34,839 bases of DNA from an uncultured Legionellales bacterium (GTDB lineage: Bacteria; Pseudomonadota; Gammaproteobacteria; Eutrophobiales; Eutrophobiaceae): NCBI GenBank assembly GCA_913046215.1, contig CAJWRJ010000017.1, positions 1 to 34,839 on the forward strand, in the 5' to 3' direction. Numbering within the stretch: position 1 is the stretch's first letter; each line of letters begins with the position of its first letter. Under the pieces are notes generated by a model. That model saw nothing but the letters and a program-made list of their open reading frames with translations, was not told where the DNA came from and searched no databases. Positions 595-13,347 of this stretch are shown here, piece by piece. The position numbers were made by a program, and so were the translations under genes.

Positions 595-1212
595 TTATAA
601 CTTAGTATGTAGACCGCACTCTCTATTACCCAACGCCTTGGTTGGATCGAAATAGTTTTCAATATTAGGTAAGTCGTTTTGTTTAAGATAATTTTTCATA
701 TCCTGCTCTTTCCAATGCAACACAGGAGCAATTTTCAAAACATCGTTTGGCCCTGTTCCAATAACTTCCATAGATTGACGAAAAGCGGTTTGTTCACTTC
801 GTACTGCTGTAAACCAAGTCCCCGGTTGTTGCTCGCTCATAGCACGATTAAAAGGTTCAAGTTTAAACTGCATTGTAAATTCATCGTGTGCATCACTATC
901 AATATCAGGAATACCACCAAGCGCAGCTTCGCGTCTAGCGGCCGTGACTTTTGGGGCATATACATCAACATTTAGTTTTAATCGCTCAATTAACTCTTCT
1001 GCAAATGTATATGTTTCAGGTGTGTTGTATCCTGAATCTATCCAGATAATAGGCATGTCTGTTTTTACCTGAGTAACCATGTGTAATATCACAGCTTCAT
1101 AAGGGCCAAAATTAGTAGTAGTAATGGGTTTTTTACCATTAGCTACTGCCCATTCAATTATTTTTAGTGGTTCTGCTTCACGTAGTTCATCGTTTATTTT
1201 TTTAAAGTCCAT
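595..1212 (-). CDS. cysH: Phosphoadenylyl-sulfate (PAPS) reductase, short form
   Basis: CysH reduces PAPS to sulfite in assimilatory sulfate reduction in the cytoplasm, using thioredoxin or glutaredoxin. The PP-loop-type fold is recognisable from WIDSGYNTPETY, the substrate-binding WFTAVRSEQ and the C-terminal catalytic motif ECGLH. The Cys-Cys pairs that bind the Fe-S cluster of APS reductases are absent, which points to PAPS as substrate. The start was set at the ATG beginning MDFKKIND, giving 205 aa, because the longer frame opens with TTG. It is shorter than E. coli CysH (about 244 aa). No other cys genes are adjacent. It converges on the rRNA operon. Confidence 0.88.
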   Translation of the reverse strand: MDFKKINDELREAEPLKIIEWAVANGKKPITTTNFGPYEAVILHMVTQVKTDMPIIWIDSGYNTPETYTFAEELIERLKLNVDVYAPKVTAARREAALGGIPDIDSDAHDEFTMQFKLEPFNRAMSEQQPGTWFTAVRSEQTAFRQSMEVIGTGPNDVLKIAPVLHWKEQDMKNYLKQNDLPNIENYFDPTKALGNRECGLHTKL

Positions 1213-1335
1213 TATTAAATCCAAATTTATGTTGTTATAAAAACTAAATACTAAGGAAAATCAATCATTAATACAAATTAAAATAATAATAACCGCTATT
1301 ATTTTAAATAAATTTAGAGTTTTTTAGTTATAGGT

Positions 1336-1935
1336 TTAATAGATAACTAGTCTTCTAACTAATTCCGTATGAGCAAGGACTTCAGTAATTTCTGCATTGA
1401 TCGACGATTTTGTTGCATCTTGAAGTGATGGGTCGTCTCTTACCAAAACATAAACTGTTGCAGGATGAATGAAAAGATCTTTTGTGTGATAACACTCACC
1501 TGGTGCTTTGGGGAGCGCTCCATCATGATGATAATCTTTTTCTAGTGTCTCGTGTGAAATTTCTTCCAAGCTTGTTTTAATTGCCAATGTTTTTGTTAGA
1601 TATTCATTGCATTGTGGCAGTCTAAATTGCGCACTTTCGATAACTACTTCAGATAAACTTAGCAAATCTTTAGCCTTATTTTGAATTGTTTTAGAATTAA
1701 TATTTTTAGTTTTTAACATTTCGAGTAATTTTTTTGCTTCTATTTCATAATTTGTTAATAGACTTGCAGCTTTTGAAAGACGTTCTTTATCATCTTTTTC
1801 AACAACGTCAGTCTTTGAAACATTATTGATGTCTTTATCACTCATTGAAGCCCCGCCATCCGAGGAAAATGTATTTTGACTTATTAATAAACATAAAAAA
1901 GTTAAATAAATTATGCCTGGTACATTCAAATTCAT
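1336..1935 (-). CDS. Exported protein of unknown function, putative iron-regulated
   Basis: Not recognised as a known family. The 199-aa product has an N-terminal signal peptide (hydrophobic residues about 7-21, probable cleavage after FSS/SDGG), so it should be periplasmic or secreted. The middle is helical and lysine-rich. The C-terminal half is rich in His, Glu and Cys (YHHDG, GECYHTKD, FIHPATVYVLVRDDP), which could bind metal; that is inference. The ATG is preceded by GGAGATAAC, a good ribosome site. A strong Fur-box-like palindrome lies 34-48 nt upstream, suggesting iron repression. Its upstream neighbours are a zinc-ribbon-like protein and a metallo-hydrolase on the same strand. Confidence 0.75.
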   Translation of the reverse strand: MNLNVPGIIYLTFLCLLISQNTFSSDGGASMSDKDINNVSKTDVVEKDDKERLSKAASLLTNYEIEAKKLLEMLKTKNINSKTIQNKAKDLLSLSEVVIESAQFRLPQCNEYLTKTLAIKTSLEEISHETLEKDYHHDGALPKAPGECYHTKDLFIHPATVYVLVRDDPSLQDATKSSINAEITEVLAHTELVRRLVIY

Positions 1936-1968
1936 TGTTATCTCCTAAATTTTTATCGTTTTTCTATA

Positions 1969-1994
1969 TGATAACGATTCTCATTTAGAAATGA
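1969..1994 (-). promoter_or_regulatory. Putative Fur box with adjoining palindrome
   Basis: TGATAACGATTCTCA (1969-1983) matches the 7-1-7 Fur consensus TGATAATNATTATCA at 12 of 14 defined positions. It overlaps a second, perfect palindrome TCATTT-AG-AAATGA (1981-1994). The position, 34 nt upstream of the ATG at 1935, is right for repression of the exported-protein gene. No Fur gene is in the window. Confidence 0.6.
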
Positions 1995-2027
1995 AAGTAT
2001 TTTTTAAAAAAAATGAGGTAAAGAGGA

Positions 2028-2366
2028 TTAGCTTGTAATTTTTTTATTCAAGTGGGGGAGAGATGATTTATCGCCAGCCTTCATATATTTTTTTTCTCCA
2101 TCAGTAGCGGTTACATTTTCATAAACTCCATCATCACGTTTTACCAGTTTTGTGAAACCAACTTCTTTAAGTTTAGAATTACTAATAGGAATATTTATTG
2201 ATGGAGGGCTAATAACTAGCTTAACTGGCGCTAATGCATCTGTATTTTCTAGTGGAATTTGTGCAACAAAGCACACCTCGCCCCAAGTTTTTAATTTAGT
2301 ATTAACGTCATGGCTAACTTCTACGGTTTTGCCATTTTTTTTACAAAAATAATCGTAATTCGGCAT
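2028..2366 (-). CDS. FmdB-like small zinc-ribbon-type protein
   Basis: A 112-aa protein starting MPNYDYFCKKNGKTVEV, the opening typical of FmdB-like putative regulatory or zinc-ribbon proteins, followed by TWGEVC. Only one Cys of each usual CxxC pair is visible (Cys8 and the Cys of GEVC), so metal binding may be degenerate. The ATG at 2366 is preferred because the longer frame starts at a TTG six codons earlier and the family begins with MPxYxY. It lies 43 nt after the metallo-hydrolase and probably shares its transcript. Its function is unknown; it may be a small accessory of the neighbouring hydrolase. Confidence 0.65.
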   Translation of the reverse strand: MPNYDYFCKKNGKTVEVSHDVNTKLKTWGEVCFVAQIPLENTDALAPVKLVISPPSINIPISNSKLKEVGFTKLVKRDDGVYENVTATDGEKKYMKAGDKSSLPHLNKKITS

Positions 2367-2409
2367 ATTCTTTATTAGTTTCAATTTTTTACTAATTATA
2401 GAGGTAAAA

Positions 2410-3345
2410 TTATTCCCATTCTAGCTCAGTGTAAGTTCTTGATACATTTCTTGCGTGTTGATATTCATGCAGCAGCCATTCTAATTGATTTTCTTTATCT
2501 ATCGATTCCATTGCTTCATCAATAAATTTTCCCTCAGCGATAGCCTCACGTATCTTGTTTAATAGCAGTTCGAAATAATCTGTCTGTTGTTTCAAGGCTT
2601 CCTTCAGTGATGATGAGACTTTTCCGTGACCTGGAACAATAACTTTAACATCAAGTTTTTTAATTTTCTCTATTGTTTCTACCCAACCTTTTAAACTCCC
2701 TGTTAAAGACGGAATTCGTTCTATAAATATTAAATCTCCCGCCCATAGAGTTTTTGTTTTTTCATCAATTACGACAATATCATTTTGACTGTGCGAATTT
2801 GGAAATGGTATTAGTGTCAATACACGATTTCCCAAGTCTAGTTTAGTTAATTTTTCGATGAGAATATTAGGACTAATCAAGTCAGAGCCATTCGGATCTT
2901 CACTTAAATTTTTTTTAAATTGGGTTAAAAAGAAATCTTTATTTTGATTTATTGCCTCCGCTAGATTCTCATGACCGACGAAGTCAGCATTTTCATTAGC
3001 AAATGCTTTATTACCAAGAATATGATCATAATGAACATGTGTATTGATAACATAACATATTGGTTTATTGGTTATATTACGTATGCTTTTTTTAAATTTT
3101 TTACCAATATTGATTGATCCTCCAGTGTCAATAACCGCAATACAATTGTCACCGATTATAAATCCCATATTAGCAATATCGTCGTTTCCTTCATCTTCAA
3201 CCGTGAGATGCTTTCCTATATGAACATAGTTTTTTTCAGCTATCTCTTTTAGATTAAAATTTTGGCTTGACTCGGATGAGAAGGTTTTACCAAGCAAACT
3301 CAATGCTATAAGGCAAATACAAACGGCATTCCTTGTATTATTCAT
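2410..3345 (-). CDS. Periplasmic metallo-beta-lactamase-fold hydrolase, quinoprotein-associated type
   Basis: A 311-aa protein with an N-terminal signal peptide (hydrophobic residues 7-19). The metallo-beta-lactamase zinc motif THVHYDHILGN has the HxHxDH pattern at His103, His105, Asp107 and His108. It is followed by FPNSHSQND, the WAGDLIF Asp and VIVPGHGK, so both metal sites look intact. The layout resembles the SoxH-like hydrolases described as quinoprotein relay system zinc metallohydrolases, found near PQQ-dependent dehydrogenases. That assignment is from memory and less sure than the fold. It starts a three-gene minus-strand group with the FmdB-like and Fur-box genes. No clear Shine-Dalgarno precedes the ATG. 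A PQQ dehydrogenase lies about 31 kb away in the window. Confidence 0.82.
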   Translation of the reverse strand: MNNTRNAVCICLIALSLLGKTFSSESSQNFNLKEIAEKNYVHIGKHLTVEDEGNDDIANMGFIIGDNCIAVIDTGGSINIGKKFKKSIRNITNKPICYVINTHVHYDHILGNKAFANENADFVGHENLAEAINQNKDFFLTQFKKNLSEDPNGSDLISPNILIEKLTKLDLGNRVLTLIPFPNSHSQNDIVVIDEKTKTLWAGDLIFIERIPSLTGSLKGWVETIEKIKKLDVKVIVPGHGKVSSSLKEALKQQTDYFELLLNKIREAIAEGKFIDEAMESIDKENQLEWLLHEYQHARNVSRTYTELEWE

Positions 3346-3499
3346 TTATTTTTTTTGAAATCAATTTCATAAACATACCAATCGATTAGTAAGCAATACT
3401 TTCAATATTAACCATAAAGATTTGAAAAATATAGCACAAATATTATTCTTGAAATTATCGGAATTAAGCTTATTGTAATAGGCTCTGAAAATTTAAATA

Positions 3500-3526
3500 T
3501 ATACCAAAAAACATCCGTTTGGTATA
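3500..3526. promoter_or_regulatory. 9-bp inverted repeat upstream of the DUF465 gene
   Basis: TATACCAAA (3500-3508) and TTTGGTATA (3518-3526) are perfect inverted arms separated by 9 nt. They lie in the 282-nt space between two divergent genes. No T run follows, so a protein-binding operator is more likely than a terminator. The binding protein is unknown. Confidence 0.4.
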
Positions 3527-3557
3527 CGTGTCATTAATTAGAAAGCATAGGAGGTAA

Positions 3558-3587
3558 ATGACCCAGTCAGTTAATCTAAATACTTAA
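3558..3587 (+). CDS. Possible 9-codon leader peptide
   Basis: A very short frame encoding MTQSVNLNT, directly preceded by AGGAGGT (3549-3555), the strongest-looking ribosome site in this gap. It ends 40 nt before the DUF465 start and follows the 9-bp inverted repeat. It has no run of a single amino acid that would suggest classical attenuation. It may be chance. Confidence 0.22.
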   Translation: MTQSVNLNT

Positions 3588-3627
3588 TATTCATAAATGT
3601 TTCCAAATTAGTTGGAGAGGAGATGCG

Positions 3628-3852
3628 ATGTTCGAACAAGACGAAGAAATTGTGGAATCTTTATTGGATAATAATAAAAATTTTAGAAGACTATACAATA
3701 AACACTGCCAATTGAAGAGCAAGGTAAAAGAGGCAAATGAAGGTTCCGTTATGATTGATAATTTGTATCTAGAGGAACTTAAAAAAGAAAAATTATATAT
3801 AAAAGATCGTCTATCTGTAATCATTGAAGACTATAGACACACGCATACATGA
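3628..3852 (+). CDS. DUF465 / YdcH family protein
   Basis: A 74-aa helical, charged protein. The pattern LLDNNKNFRRLYNKHCQLKSKVKEA followed by a second helix LEELKKEKLYIKDRL matches the small two-helix DUF465 (YdcH) family, whose role is unknown. Its members have a conserved His in the first helix (here KHCQL) and Lys-Lys-x-Lys-Leu-x-Leu-Lys in the second. The ATG is preceded by GGAGAGGAG at 3614-3622, a strong ribosome site. It stands alone between a divergent hydrolase gene and its own terminator. Confidence 0.82.
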   Translation: MFEQDEEIVESLLDNNKNFRRLYNKHCQLKSKVKEANEGSVMIDNLYLEELKKEKLYIKDRLSVIIEDYRHTHT

Positions 3853-3872
3853 TATTAGACACTTCTAGTAAC

Positions 3873-3899
3873 AAAGCCCTAATATAACAGGGCTTTTTT
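3873..3899 (+). terminator. Intrinsic terminator after the DUF465 gene
   Basis: AAAGCCCT (3873-3880) pairs with AGGGCTTT (3889-3896) around an 8-nt loop and is followed by TTT. The last bases overlap the stop codon of the convergent TauE/SafE gene. In the opposite direction the U tract is broken, so it serves mainly the plus strand. Confidence 0.85.
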
Positions 3900-4701
3900 A
3901 TTGAATTAATAAAATTCCAATTACCAATAACATACTTGCCAAGATCATCCGCATAATTTTATCTGGTATCAAGCCTCCAACATGACTTCCAAGGTAGATA
4001 CCAGGCAATGAACCAATAATTAAACTCAAGAGAAGAATATAATTTACTGTTCCTAAATTTGCATGTCCAATTCCTGCTATTGCTGTTATTGGAATAGCAT
4101 GTGCCAAGTCTGTTGCTACAACTTCAATTGTTTTATATTTTGGATATAAAAAGAAAAGAAATGCTGCACCTATAACACCAGCGCCAACAGAGGAGAACGT
4201 GACTAGCGTTCCGATTAAAATTCCAGCAAAGATGGTAAAATGATCTGTATATTTACTATGCAATATTTTCAAAAATCCAAAATGTTCATTTTTACTTAAT
4301 TTATTCCATTGATTACGAAAGATTAAAAATATTGCAGTTAGTATCATAGCAAAACTTAAGGTATTTAAGATTAAGCTATCATAATTAATTCCTGAATCAT
4401 TGAGTTGTTTGATTACAAAAATTGATACAAGCGAGGCAGGGATGCTTCCCATACAAAGCAGACTCACAACTTTCCATTTTATATTACCTTGTTTTTGATG
4501 AGCAAATACACCAACAGACTTTGTTATAGCTGCGTATAGCAAATCTGTACCAACAGCAACAGCTGGTGGAATATGAAATCCCAGAACAAGGATTGGAGTC
4601 ATTAGAGAGCCACCACCTACGCCAGTCATACCAATAACGAATCCAACTGAGAAACCCGCAGCAATCTTGTATAAAAATTCTATAGTGAGTATAAATTCCA
4701 T
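3898..4701 (-). CDS. TauE/SafE family sulfite/anion exporter-like membrane protein
   Basis: A 267-aa inner-membrane protein with about eight hydrophobic segments in two repeats. The first repeat carries the family signature GFVIGMTGVGGGSLMTPIL near residues 19-37. The second begins GILIGTLVTFSSVGAGVIGA near 160-179. TSUP proteins move sulfite, sulfoacetate or related sulfur anions; the substrate cannot be told from sequence. The length is normal. CysH and a mercaptopyruvate sulfurtransferase lie nearby, which fits a sulfur role. It appears monocistronic, with 166 nt separating it from the upstream FHA gene. Confidence 0.88.
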   Translation of the reverse strand: MEFILTIEFLYKIAAGFSVGFVIGMTGVGGGSLMTPILVLGFHIPPAVAVGTDLLYAAITKSVGVFAHQKQGNIKWKVVSLLCMGSIPASLVSIFVIKQLNDSGINYDSLILNTLSFAMILTAIFLIFRNQWNKLSKNEHFGFLKILHSKYTDHFTIFAGILIGTLVTFSSVGAGVIGAAFLFFLYPKYKTIEVVATDLAHAIPITAIAGIGHANLGTVNYILLLSLIIGSLPGIYLGSHVGGLIPDKIMRMILASMLLVIGILLIQ

Positions 4702-4867: not shown

Positions 4868-5722
4868 CTAAATTAAGCTAAGACTGTTTTCAGCTACATA
4901 TTTTGCTGGAACGAAAGTGCCGTGTGACGACAGATCTGTTAGATACAACATGTTTCTTTCTGAGCCTTCAATAACAACATGCATACGAGATATATCTCTT
5001 AAATTTTTACTCATAACAATATCGCTATTACTTCCGCGCCCAATAATATTTTTCCCGTCTTTTAGTTGATAGTGGCGCCCCGACTCATCGACAAATTTTA
5101 TACTCGATTCTTCTCCAATGATTGAACATCTATGGTTTGATAATAAAAGTGCAATTTCATCACCTTCATTAACATGTATCGCAACATTTTCACCTTTCGA
5201 TAATCTTTCCATTTCATGCTGAATTGATAAGTCTTTTGAATTTTGATCTTTTGTGCTTTTACTATGAGAAGGAGATGATTTAAGTATTTCCTTTTTCTTT
5301 TCTCCATAAAATTCTTTCAACACCTCTTGTATGGATGAAAGGTATTGCAAATACTTAACTATAGCAATATGCCTGAAGTCATTTAATTCACTATTTCCAT
5401 TGTGAAGAGCACTTATTACTGTTCTCCAGCCATGATCTTGGGAAAACACATTTATATCAATTTCACGTAACGAACGATCAATACTACCTGGTTGTGATAT
5501 TGATACCGAAAGCATAGAAACCAATTCTTTTTCAACTACCTTGATTTTTTTATATTCTTTTTTTAGTTCACCAAGACTTAATTTCATGATTCTTTTAAAT
5601 TTTTCAATAGGCAACGAAGTTCTACCTGCCAAACTAAACTCAAAATCAGCAAGTGAGCTAAATTTATATGTGTGTTCACCAATGGCAAATTCGATTGGTT
5701 TTGATAAAATATTCGTTAACAT
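4868..5722 (-). CDS. FHA-domain protein with unknown N-terminal region
   Basis: A 284-aa cytoplasmic protein (no signal peptide or TM once the ATG at 5722 is used). Residues about 205-275 form an FHA phosphothreonine-binding domain: IIGRG at 216-220, ISRMH at 234-238 and LSSHGTF at 254-260 are the expected contact blocks. Residues 1-135 are an unrecognised helical region starting KPIEFAIGEHTYKFSSL. A polar Lys/Ser linker follows (about 141-165). The ATG at 5722 is chosen because the longer frame starts with TTG, reads through the CRP-type palindromes and adds Cys-rich unconserved-looking sequence. It is divergent from the sulfurtransferase. No Ser/Thr kinase is in view. Confidence 0.78.
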   Translation of the reverse strand: MLTNILSKPIEFAIGEHTYKFSSLADFEFSLAGRTSLPIEKFKRIMKLSLGELKKEYKKIKVVEKELVSMLSVSISQPGSIDRSLREIDINVFSQDHGWRTVISALHNGNSELNDFRHIAIVKYLQYLSSIQEVLKEFYGEKKKEILKSSPSHSKSTKDQNSKDLSIQHEMERLSKGENVAIHVNEGDEIALLLSNHRCSIIGEESSIKFVDESGRHYQLKDGKNIIGRGSNSDIVMSKNLRDISRMHVVIEGSERNMLYLTDLSSHGTFVPAKYVAENSLSLI

Positions 5723-5770
5723 AATATTAGAAATTATAGTTAGCCACAGGGCGTATGAATAATGAAACCT

Positions 5771-5848
5771 TGTGATATTGCTCACATTAATTGATATAAC
5801 CTTGTGAAATGGTTCACATTTATCATTGCATACGTGAAGTAGTTCACA
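5771..5848. promoter_or_regulatory. Three phased CRP-type binding sites
   Basis: Three palindromes of the form TGTGA-N6-TCACA occur at 5771-5786 (spacer TATTGC), 5803-5818 (spacer AATGGT) and 5833-5848 (CGTGA-AGTAGT-TCACA). The first two match the 10 core CRP bases perfectly; the third has one change. Centres are 32 and 30 bp apart, close to three helical turns, so all three face the same side of DNA. They lie in the 166-nt space between divergent genes: centres about 56, 88 and 118 nt upstream of the FHA start, and 48, 78 and 110 nt upstream of the sulfurtransferase start. Confidence 0.75.
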
Positions 5849-5888
5849 ACTTTTTTTACCTAGTTTTTTAAAAAACAAGGCTTAAAAA

Positions 5889-6719
5889 ATGTATAAAACA
5901 CTTATTGATTTCAATTCACTTCTAAACCAACTTGATAATAACAACTTGGTAATTTTCGATGTTCGATATGACTTAATGAATAAGTCTGCAGGTAGAGAAG
6001 AATATTCTTTATCCCATATACCGGGAGCAATCTATGTCGATTTAGGTTTAGATCTGAGTAGAAAACCTTCTACAAACCGCTCAAGACATCCACTACCTCA
6101 AACTGAGACCATGAATAAATTGTTTTCTGAGCTTGGTATTAATAGTAATAAACAGGTTATTATTTATGATAATGTATTTGGCGCATTTGCAGCGCGTCTT
6201 TGGTGGATGTTAAACCATATGCAACATAAGAGAGTTGCGGTACTTGATGGCGGCTGGCAACAATGGATTAATTTGCAAGGACCGACGTGTTCAAAGATTG
6301 AAAAACCTAAAGAAAGTAAATTTAATAATGCAGCCATGAATGATAGTGTGGTTTGTATAGAGAGAGTTAGAAATTTTGATTTAATCATTGATTCAAGAGA
6401 GCCATCAAGATACCGAGGAGATTCTGAGCCAATTGATAAAAAAGCTGGCCACATACCTAATGCAATTAATAGATTTTGGAAAAATAATTTGAATAATTCA
6501 GGACTCTTCAAAGAGCAAAATATTCTTGTTGAAGAATTCGAAGAACTTTTTGGCGAGACTTCGTCAGAAAACGCTGTATTTTATTGTGGGTCAGGTGTCA
6601 CCGCTTGCCACAATCTATTAGCTGCAGTTCATGCGGGGTTTAATTTGCCTAGATTGTATGCTGGCTCTTGGAGTGAGTGGTGTGCTACTTCAGGAAAGGA
6701 GATAGCAGTATCAAATTGA
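5889..6719 (+). CDS. sseA: 3-mercaptopyruvate sulfurtransferase (two-domain rhodanese)
   Basis: A 276-aa enzyme made of two rhodanese domains. The N-terminal one contains IFDVRYDL and HIPGAIYVDL. The C-terminal one contains IIDSREPSRYRG, AGHIPNAI and the active-site loop YCGSGVTACH. The loop CGSGVTA is typical of mercaptopyruvate sulfurtransferases, while thiosulfate sulfurtransferases usually have CRKGVTA. It transfers sulfane sulfur from 3-mercaptopyruvate to thiols or cyanide. Length is normal for SseA. It is divergent from an FHA gene and sits downstream of the CRP-type sites, with the nearest site centred 48 nt before its ATG. Confidence 0.9.
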   Translation: MYKTLIDFNSLLNQLDNNNLVIFDVRYDLMNKSAGREEYSLSHIPGAIYVDLGLDLSRKPSTNRSRHPLPQTETMNKLFSELGINSNKQVIIYDNVFGAFAARLWWMLNHMQHKRVAVLDGGWQQWINLQGPTCSKIEKPKESKFNNAAMNDSVVCIERVRNFDLIIDSREPSRYRGDSEPIDKKAGHIPNAINRFWKNNLNNSGLFKEQNILVEEFEELFGETSSENAVFYCGSGVTACHNLLAAVHAGFNLPRLYAGSWSEWCATSGKEIAVSN

Positions 6720-10582: not shown

Positions 10583-12133
10583 ATGAAAATAGTCAGATAC
10601 ATTATCTTAACTACTTTATTAAGCATTGTATGTGTAATCAATTCTAGCGCGGAGATTACATACGATAAGATTCAGTTACTTATAGAAAACGATAAACATA
10701 AAGAAGCACTTAATTTAACCGAAGATTACCTTTCTCGCAATAAGTCCGATATTAAATTTCAGTTTTTAAAAGGTTTAATTCTGGCCAGATTAAATAGATA
10801 TAACGATGCAGAAAAGATATTTTACAAAATGGCAGAGGAAAATCCTAATCTACCCGAACCTCTAAATAACTTAGCGGTAATTTATTCAATTCAGGGAGAA
10901 TATTCCAAAGCTCAAGAAATACTTAAAAAAGCATTAGAGTCTAACCGAAATTATGAGACAGTTTATCATAATCTAAGCGATCTTTATGCCAAAGTTGCCA
11001 GCCGTGCATATAATCAAGCACTTGGTATTTCGCAAACCGAAAGAGGACCAGTAGAGAAACTATTGTTTCTTAGAGAACTAAATTTACCTCAAACTATGCT
11101 TATTGAATCTTTGAATCGTGAAAATAAAGAGCTTAAAAGTGTAATGAAGGATACAGAAAAAGTACTTGAAGAAAATAAGCTTGCTATAAAAATTAAAAAT
11201 CAGGAATTATCTAAATTAGGAGAAGCTCAGAGATCAATTCAAAAATTAATGCAAGAGAAACTTGAGCTTAATATAGAGATTAAAGAGTTGAAGGGTTCTT
11301 TGGATGAGGTTATGTATTCCCTTTCACTTAAAGATGAACAATTAGCTAAGCTTGATGAAACAGAAAAAGCACTTGCAGGATTAACAAATGAAAATAAAGG
11401 TTTAAAGGATCGATTAGTAAAAGCCGAAGCATCATTAGGTCAATTGAGTAGCTCCCTTTCACTTAAAGATGAACAATTAGCTAAGCTTGATGAAACAGAA
11501 AAAGCACTTGCAGGATTAACAAATGAAAATAAAGGTTTAAAGGATCGATTAGTAAAAGCCGAAGCATCATTAGGTCAATTGAGTAGCTCTTTAATTCTTA
11601 AAGATGAACAATTAGCTAAGCTTGATGAAAATTTAAATAATATAAATGCAGCTGATTTAAAAAAAGAAAACTCTAATCTCAAAAGTAAAGTTAATGAGAC
11701 CGAATTATTGCTTGAAGAACTTAAAAAATCAGTGGCTGATGGGGCAGAGGATCCTAGTCCTGATATAGGTCAAAAAACTAACAAACTGAGCGAACAGAAA
11801 AAAGCCATAGAAATAGCTATTAATAATTGGGTAAATGCATGGGCATCAAAAAATATAGATAATTATATTTCAAGTTATGCAATGGAATTTAAGCCCTCGA
11901 GAGGATTAAGTAGAGCAAAATGGGAATTGCAAAGACGAGAACGTCTAGCCAATCCGTCTTTTATCAAGATAAAATTGACTAATATAAAAATAGAAATTCG
12001 TGATGATGGTCTAGCAAATGTAAGATTTACACAGCAATATCAATCAGACTCATATAAAGATGAGGTAAAAAAAATAGTAACAGTGAAAATGATTAATAAT
12101 AAATGGTTAATTATGCGAGAGCGAGTTCTTTAA
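10583..12133 (+). CDS. Exported TPR / coiled-coil protein with Csd6-like C-terminal domain
   Basis: A 516-aa protein. The signal peptide ends near residue 23 (NSSA-EI). TPR-like helices cover about 25-150 (NEDKHKEAL-type and LNNLAVIYSIQGEYSKAQEIL). A long coiled coil covers about 185-400. An NTF2/SnoaL-like domain covers about 405-516 (INNWVNAWASKNIDNYISSY ... KWLIMRERVL). The same C-terminal domain type ends the next gene, whose ATG overlaps this stop by one base, so the two are probably translationally coupled and may act together at the cell wall. The coiled coil includes a 45-residue perfect tandem repeat. The function is inferred only as a scaffold. Confidence 0.8.
   Translation: MKIVRYIILTTLLSIVCVINSSAEITYDKIQLLIENDKHKEALNLTEDYLSRNKSDIKFQFLKGLILARLNRYNDAEKIFYKMAEENPNLPEPLNNLAVIYSIQGEYSKAQEILKKALESNRNYETVYHNLSDLYAKVASRAYNQALGISQTERGPVEKLLFLRELNLPQTMLIESLNRENKELKSVMKDTEKVLEENKLAIKIKNQELSKLGEAQRSIQKLMQEKLELNIEIKELKGSLDEVMYSLSLKDEQLAKLDETEKALAGLTNENKGLKDRLVKAEASLGQLSSSLSLKDEQLAKLDETEKALAGLTNENKGLKDRLVKAEASLGQLSSSLILKDEQLAKLDENLNNINAADLKKENSNLKSKVNETELLLEELKKSVADGAEDPSPDIGQKTNKLSEQKKAIEIAINNWVNAWASKNIDNYISSYAMEFKPSRGLSRAKWELQRRERLANPSFIKIKLTNIKIEIRDDGLANVRFTQQYQSDSYKDEVKKIVTVKMINNKWLIMRERVL
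11318..11632 (+). repeat. 135-bp perfect tandem duplication plus partial third copy
   Basis: Copy 1 (11318-11452) and copy 2 (11453-11587) read identical base for base. A third partial copy (11588 to about 11630) matches over about 43 bp with changes near its start and then diverges. The unit is 45 codons, so frame is kept. In the protein it lengthens the coiled coil (residues about 246-335) by heptad-like units containing KDEQLAKLDE and LTNENKGLKDRL. Confidence 0.95.
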
Positions 12134-13347
12134 TGAACATAAAATATAAAATTATAGCATCAGTATTATTTTTCCAAATAAATTTTTTATTTGCTGAAAA
12201 TAATTTCGAAAAGAATACGTCCTTAACTGTTGAAGAAGTGTCTATATATTCAGAAAAGGTTTTAATTGATGCGCTTGATTTTGTTAAGAATGGTAATGTA
12301 GATGAAGCCATTGAAAAATTGGAAAAATTGATAGAATTAAACCCAAGTTTTAATGCAGCACAACTTATTTATGCCGATTTAATGTTATCCCGCTCCCAAC
12401 CAATCACTGATTTCGGAAATATAACAAATGCACCATATACACGTATAAACTCATTACTAAGTGAGGTAAAAGCAAGGTGGAATTTTCATAAAGCAACAAT
12501 TGATAACAATAAAATACCATCATCCTTAATAAAGTTAGCTAATAGCCAAAGCCATGTAATTGTGGTTGATGCTTTAACTTCGCGTTTATTTCTCTTTGAA
12601 AATAACAATGGTGTTCCAAAATTAAAAAGCGATTTTTATGTAACTATAGGTAAAAATGGAACGGGAAAATATGTTGAGGGAGATCAAAAAACTCCAATCG
12701 GAGTTTATTTTGTGACAGGTTTTATTCCATCAGAGGATTTACCCGATCTATATGGAGATGGTGCATTTCCAATCAATTACCCAAATGCTTGGGATCGGAG
12801 TCACAATCGAACTGGATATGGAATTTGGTTGCATGGGACCCCAAGCAAATTTTATAGTCGTGCTCCAAAAGATAGTGATGGTTGTGTTATTGTAAGTAAT
12901 AACGATCTTAATACTTTATCTCGATTTATAGATGTGGGTGAAACCCCCATTGTTATTGTTGACAACATCAATTGGATAACAAAGGATGAATGGGAAAAAA
13001 GAAATACCAGCTATAATTTATTTGTTGAACAGTGGCGTCAAGATTGGGAAAGTCGAAATGTTGGGTCGTATTTAAGTCATTACTCAAAGGATTATACAGG
13101 ACTTGGTAAAAATTATGATTCATGGGTTGAATATAAAAGTAGAATTATTCCAACAAAAAAATTTATTAAAGTTGATTTATCAAATAAAAGCGTTTTCGTT
13201 TATCCAGAACCAATCAATTTAATGGTTGTCACTTTTATGCAAGATTATAGTAGTGATACCTTTAGAAAAAAATTTCTAAAAAGGCAGTATTGGAAAATGG
13301 AGCAAGATGGTAAGTGGCGTATTATTTTTGAGGGTGCTGCATCCTAG
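12133..13347 (+). CDS. YkuD-family L,D-transpeptidase/carboxypeptidase with Csd6-like C-terminal domain
   Basis: A 404-aa exported protein. The signal peptide ends near FLFA21. A helical TPR-like stretch (about 45-85) precedes a YkuD domain (about 141-275). The catalytic motif is complete: H234 in IWLHGTP and S248-D-G-C251-V. An NTF2-like domain (about 293-402) follows, as in Helicobacter Csd6, which trims peptidoglycan peptides. It is either an L,D-transpeptidase or an L,D-carboxypeptidase; domain order favours the Csd6/YafK group. The ATG at 12133 overlaps the TPR gene stop (TAATG). The in-frame upstream start lies inside the previous gene and lacks a signal peptide. Confidence 0.88.
   Translation: MNIKYKIIASVLFFQINFLFAENNFEKNTSLTVEEVSIYSEKVLIDALDFVKNGNVDEAIEKLEKLIELNPSFNAAQLIYADLMLSRSQPITDFGNITNAPYTRINSLLSEVKARWNFHKATIDNNKIPSSLIKLANSQSHVIVVDALTSRLFLFENNNGVPKLKSDFYVTIGKNGTGKYVEGDQKTPIGVYFVTGFIPSEDLPDLYGDGAFPINYPNAWDRSHNRTGYGIWLHGTPSKFYSRAPKDSDGCVIVSNNDLNTLSRFIDVGETPIVIVDNINWITKDEWEKRNTSYNLFVEQWRQDWESRNVGSYLSHYSKDYTGLGKNYDSWVEYKSRIIPTKKFIKVDLSNKSVFVYPEPINLMVVTFMQDYSSDTFRKKFLKRQYWKMEQDGKWRIIFEGAAS

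Follow-up and report, generated by a model that had tools for sequence, protein, structure and literature searches.

Three CRP-type palindromes lie between a leftward gene for an FHA-domain protein and a rightward gene for a two-domain sulfurtransferase. The question is whether they form a genuine promoter array, which of the two genes they serve, and which regulator binds them. The locus was studied in the window (the whole 34,839-nt stretch of DNA analysed), which is contig 17 of a 1.40 Mb genome (98.8% complete, 52 contigs) whose nearest named relatives are gammaproteobacterial MAGs. The genome was examined by pattern and family searches. As far as sequence can tell, the three CRP-type sites, at which binding is predicted, make up a genuine promoter array that is conserved in the genus and uncommon elsewhere, and it is quite probably a cAMP-CRP array in which three dimer sites on one DNA face control the leftward FHA gene.

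The array and its conservation

A sequence-only reading had described two exact TGTGA-N6-TCACA cores and a third palindrome with one mismatch, spaced 32 and 30 bp on one DNA face within a 166-nt divergent region. All three palindromes were confirmed (Table 1). Their centres at 5778.5, 5810.5, and 5840.5 give the spacings of 32 and 30 bp, which support a same-face arrangement, and the spacer from the FHA-gene ATG (5722) to the sulfurtransferase ATG (5889) is 166 nt. Counting matches with up to one mismatch, the window holds five, where 1.18 would be expected; in 100 shuffles, this number was never reached. Moreover, the three sites agree with the published Vfr consensus at 15–16 of 18 specified positions, and site 2 has the top Vfr-consensus score of the whole window (16/18). 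The open reading frame called for the FHA gene reaches a TTG at 5878 and crosses the array. Coding sequence was ruled out because the open frame of the congeners extends just 2–8 codons further upstream (286–292 aa vs 284), so the array is non-coding.

Table 1. Features of the locus and CRP-site arrays of the genome.
Feature	Coordinates	Strand	Details
FHA-domain protein gene	4868..5722	-	284 aa; PF00498, 2.8e-8; probable ancestral target
Candidate -10 of FHA gene	5733..5738	-	TATAAT, 32 nt away from site 1; kept in all three species; predicted promoter
CRP-type site 1	5771-5786	.	TGTGATATTGCTCACA; exact core; exact in both congeners with the locus
CRP-type site 2	5803-5818	.	TGTGAAATGGTTCACA; exact core; exact in both congeners
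CRP-type site 3	5833-5848	.	CGTGAAGTAGTTCACA; one mismatch here; exact in both congeners
Likely Shine-Dalgarno of sulfurtransferase gene	5877..5880	+	AAGG; similar purine motif in congeners
Two-domain rhodanese/sulfurtransferase gene	5889..6719	+	PF00581, two stretches; divergent neighbour
Array C17 (window)			3 sites; upstream of FHA gene
Array C40	C40:134-234		4 sites, spacing 31/31/23; behind TpsB (ShlB/FhaC-type) gene, before gene cut by contig end
Array C23	C23:15676-15720		2 sites, spacing 29; between pilW and pilX

Conservation in relatives, on which the sequence-only reading had let its case depend, was found in the two congeners that hold the locus, G004 and G005. Both keep all three sites, with spacings of 32/30 and 32/31. 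In the three-way alignment, 28 of the 30 core columns are identical, compared with 53 of the 122 other intergenic columns (P=2e-7). The identity of the flanking proteins to those of the window is 74% (G004) and 70% (G005) for the sulfurtransferase and 82% and 74%, respectively, for the FHA protein.

The genome-wide count was also exceptional. A pattern search found six exact TGTGAN6TCACA sites, against one for the reversed control and approximately 1.5 expected from the window composition, and all six fall in three intergenic arrays of 2–4 sites. The claim that triple phased sites are uncommon holds, but the array is not unique, as the genome has two others. The exact triple pattern was present in one of 369 sampled class genomes, namely this genome, at its C40 array; exact pairs were present in 6 of 53 family genomes, four of which belong to this genus. 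In another genus of the family, two exact CRP sites lie 25 bp apart (L178, G014:C19:11363-11403), and the gene downstream of this pair encodes a protein whose N-terminus is probably cyclic-nucleotide-binding.

In the case of the C40 array, the counterpart in the congener G003 is a mirror-image array of four sites (23/31/31); it is flanked by tpsB and by a gene for a TPS-domain adhesin (tpsA), the first codons of which match the C40 contig end. The C23 array is followed by a gene for a long VWA protein, whose position suggests that it is PilY1-like; between pilW and pilX, the congener G004 likewise has two sites, with a spacing of 30 bp. Five of the six independent array spacings are 29–32 bp, near three helical turns (P=0.002 vs uniform 22–40).

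The gene served and the direction of control

Of 58 genomes searched, 31 had an orthologue or homologue of the FHA protein. For each FHA orthologue and each sulfurtransferase gene, the preceding 160 bp were compared for sites with up to one mismatch. Such a site was found in 14 of 29 FHA upstream regions, compared with 0.19 expected. Outside the genus, 11 of 26 FHA orthologues had an upstream CRP-like site, exact in four cases, and the other 15 had none within 160 bp; the sulfurtransferase upstream regions of the same length had none (0/26, with 0.15 expected). Most relatives likewise have the two genes in divergent orientation, but with 1.3–2.1 kb between them; in the relatives inspected, this gap usually holds a gene for an aminopeptidase-like lipoprotein (named by eye). 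The FHA-side sites outside the genus occur mostly in genomes where the genes are at least 1.3 kb apart. Because sites outside the genus accompany 11 of 26 FHA genes and none of 26 sulfurtransferase genes, the FHA gene is the apparent ancestral target, with which the site would have travelled. Judging from the present distribution, the intervening gene seems to have been lost in this genus, so that the divergent pair arose and the sulfurtransferase gene came to lie beside the array.

These comparisons support the earlier claim that the FHA gene is controlled, whereas the suggested two-way control including the sulfurtransferase gene is probably wrong. Sites associated with both flanking genes across relatives, as a bidirectional CRP promoter would have, were not seen. 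The naming of the rightward product as a mercaptopyruvate sulfurtransferase was not established either: its rhodanese domains are present, but it scored 126.6 bits vs 250 for the equivalog PRK11493. As for the FHA protein, a profile comparison with the PDB matched known FHA domains only, and its AlphaFold2 model (four sequences, mean pLDDT 50) was too poor for a fold search.

A bidirectional switch, in which the array activates the FHA gene and represses the sulfurtransferase gene through site 3 over its -35 (or activates it in class II fashion), is possible although unlikely. Site 3 is kept in both congeners and lies just 40 bp from the sulfurtransferase ATG, with a likely Shine-Dalgarno in between; because the gap is this short, a sulfurtransferase promoter between site 3 and the ATG must overlap site 3. 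However, no conserved -10 was found on the sulfurtransferase side, another start could serve the gene, and the lack of upstream sites in all 26 relatives outside the genus argues against this switch.

On the FHA side, taking TATAAT as the -10 places the site centres at predicted positions -52.5, -84.5, and -114.5. No recognisable -35 element was found at this promoter. A sigma-70 scan of the intergenic region found three candidates compared with 1.9 in shuffles, none of them in the array. The predicted positions differ from those of E. coli class III tandem promoters (-41.5, -61.5, and approximately -93.5), and E. coli CRP activates sigma-70 promoters weakly near -50 (PMC2859248). By E. coli rules, the -52.5 geometry is awkward, and either transcription starts elsewhere, or the rules differ in this lineage, or the array represses. 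Among FHA orthologues, no single spacing between -10 and CRP site was common to all. In the genus and in G029 and G021, a TATAAT-like box recurrently lies approximately 31–32 nt from a CRP site (centre -51.5 to -52.5), a distance at which activation is poor in E. coli.

Repression of the FHA gene, with CRP at -52.5 and upstream hindering polymerase rather than recruiting it, is somewhat less likely still. It would agree with a predicted position that is poor for activation in E. coli (PMC2859248) and with the tpsA array, which may lie downstream of a promoter. Yet site 1 overlaps neither the -10 nor the -35 region, and the lack of a usable -35 is usual for activator-dependent promoters. The single sites of other genera also speak against repression, as they lie approximately -40 to -121 from the start codon, some of them near -61.5 from a TATAAT-like box. 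Because the CRP sites accompany a conserved TATAAT and no recognisable -35, and because Vfr offers precedents, the array probably activates the FHA gene.

With regard to the tpsA array, an TTTATGTATAATCCAATTTT block with the look of an extended -10 lies upstream and is fully conserved (L165:134-290, L164:1900-2100). Because of this conserved block, the tpsA array may sit in a transcript leader, and a position downstream of an extended -10 may fit either repression or a leader position there. The approximately 50 nt preceding the tpsA ATG are also almost unchanged.

In P. aeruginosa, Vfr uses three sites to activate algZ, and the fimU minor-pilin operon is one of its direct targets (PMC8787478), as is the two-partner-secretion operon exlBA (PMC13001255). 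The present system resembles these promoters in its CRP/Vfr-type regulator with a matching helix, in having multiple sites per promoter, and in its predicted pilin-operon and two-partner-secretion targets (PMC8787478, PMC13001255). Unlike the degenerate Vfr sites of algZ, those of the window are near-perfect, conserved, and evenly spaced near three helical turns; furthermore, the probable target in the window is an FHA protein, and the cyclase carries a fused FHA domain, unlike CyaA/CyaB. At E. coli class III tandem promoters such as deoC, two or more CRP dimers likewise bind ahead of a single promoter (PMC5957442), whereas the window has three sites approximately 31 bp apart with site 1 at a predicted -52.5, not -41.5 or -61.5. 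Multiple canonical CRP sites, of the CRP-N type, are also found at Vibrio tfoX promoters, three of them in V. fischeri, but they are 43 bp apart centre to centre in V. cholerae and serve another target (PMC4595672).

The likely regulator and a candidate source of cAMP

A CRP/FNR homologue, which the sequence-only reading had assumed, is present. Only one HTH_Crp_2 protein was found in the genome, and it passes the PRK11753 equivalog cut-off (303 vs 266 bits). Its closest solved structure is P. aeruginosa Vfr (alignment with 7few), and the two proteins have the same recognition helix, IVGCSREMVGRVLKSLEE. The motifs of the cAMP pocket are also kept. The protein is 95–97% identical in three congeners (G004, G005, and G001), far above its targets, and the incomplete genomes G002 and G003 gave just weak cNMP-domain matches. 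The crp gene, at G000:C22:185-826, adjoins OsmC- and TusA-like genes (named by eye). This CRP/Vfr orthologue is the likely regulator of the array.

Binding of the palindromes by another CRP/FNR-family protein or by an unrelated regulator is improbable: the TGTGA-N6-TCACA core is common to some other proteins of the family, such as HcpR, but a single HTH_Crp_2 protein was found in this nearly complete genome, and that protein has the CRP/Vfr recognition helix. The idea that the palindromes arose by chance or are copies of a dispersed repeat, with no part in regulation, can be practically dismissed, for although short palindromes arise in a window as AT-rich as this (33% GC), the core is selectively conserved, chance triplets (up to one mismatch, both gaps 22–40) are expected from base composition at approximately 2e-5 per genome, and six exact copies, all in intergenic arrays, are too few for a dispersed repeat, which was ruled out.

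A candidate cAMP-producing enzyme was found in the genome by domain search. One class III adenylate cyclase domain, over the cut-off, is fused to an FHA domain and encoded on C40, and no class I adenylate cyclase was found in the genome. The cyclase-FHA gene adjoins a PP2C phosphatase gene and the start of a probable Ser/Thr kinase gene, and this operon (G000:C40:3798-5908, L165; also L188-L191) is kept across the family. The kinase start on C40 carries EEKTVIGG repeats, and the kinase linker in G005 repeats EEKTVIGGEE; a Pfam scan of the cut C40 fragment found no kinase domain. Such repeats resemble phospho-threonine sites that FHA domains would recognise. Among the papers searched, none joined an FHA-fused adenylate cyclase with CRP.

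For the preferred reading, control of the FHA gene by a cAMP-CRP array, we infer binding, cAMP dependence, activation over repression, and cooperativity. The FHA-fused class III cyclase would make cAMP, and at high cAMP the single CRP/Vfr-type regulator would bind the three sites as dimers and raise transcription of the FHA gene. In this genus, the one ancestral site ahead of the FHA gene, which is still present in other genera, would have multiplied to three sites approximately 31 bp apart, most likely for a stronger or steeper (cooperative) response. The arrays at the FHA gene, tpsA, and pilX would be the central promoters of a small CRP regulon that governs attachment to surfaces.

A possible wider regulon and other features of the window

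A more far-reaching proposal, which we regard as doubtful, is that the genus has concentrated its CRP regulon in a few promoters with 2–4 in-phase, near-consensus sites. On these, bound and bent dimers would form a compact cooperative complex and provide a sharp cAMP switch for surface attachment; the FHA kinase-phosphatase-cyclase module would feed this switch, and the FHA protein of the window would close a feedback loop. CRP promoters with several sites are known, but it is rare for all exact sites of a genome to lie in evenly phased arrays of near-perfect sites. Such arrays lend themselves as natural experiments on how site multiplicity and helical phase contribute to the cAMP response, and the window array would connect cAMP signalling in this uncultured lineage with an uncharacterised FHA protein.

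Other features of the window were also recorded. At the contig start (1-539) lie a 23S rRNA gene, represented by its 3' end, and a 5S rRNA gene. Downstream of the FHA gene, positions 595-4701 encode a sulfur-related group made up of a TauE/SafE exporter, a metallo-beta-lactamase-fold protein, and a PAPS-reductase-family protein; in G004 and G005, the FHA-adjoining gene looks instead like a CysH-type reductase (by eye). Farther to the right, positions 10583-13347 encode a TPR/coiled-coil protein with internal near-identical repeats, LKDEQLAKLDETEKALAGLTNENKGLKDRLVKAEASLGQLSSS. It adjoins an L,D-transpeptidase, and both proteins end in a Cds6_C NTF2-like domain.
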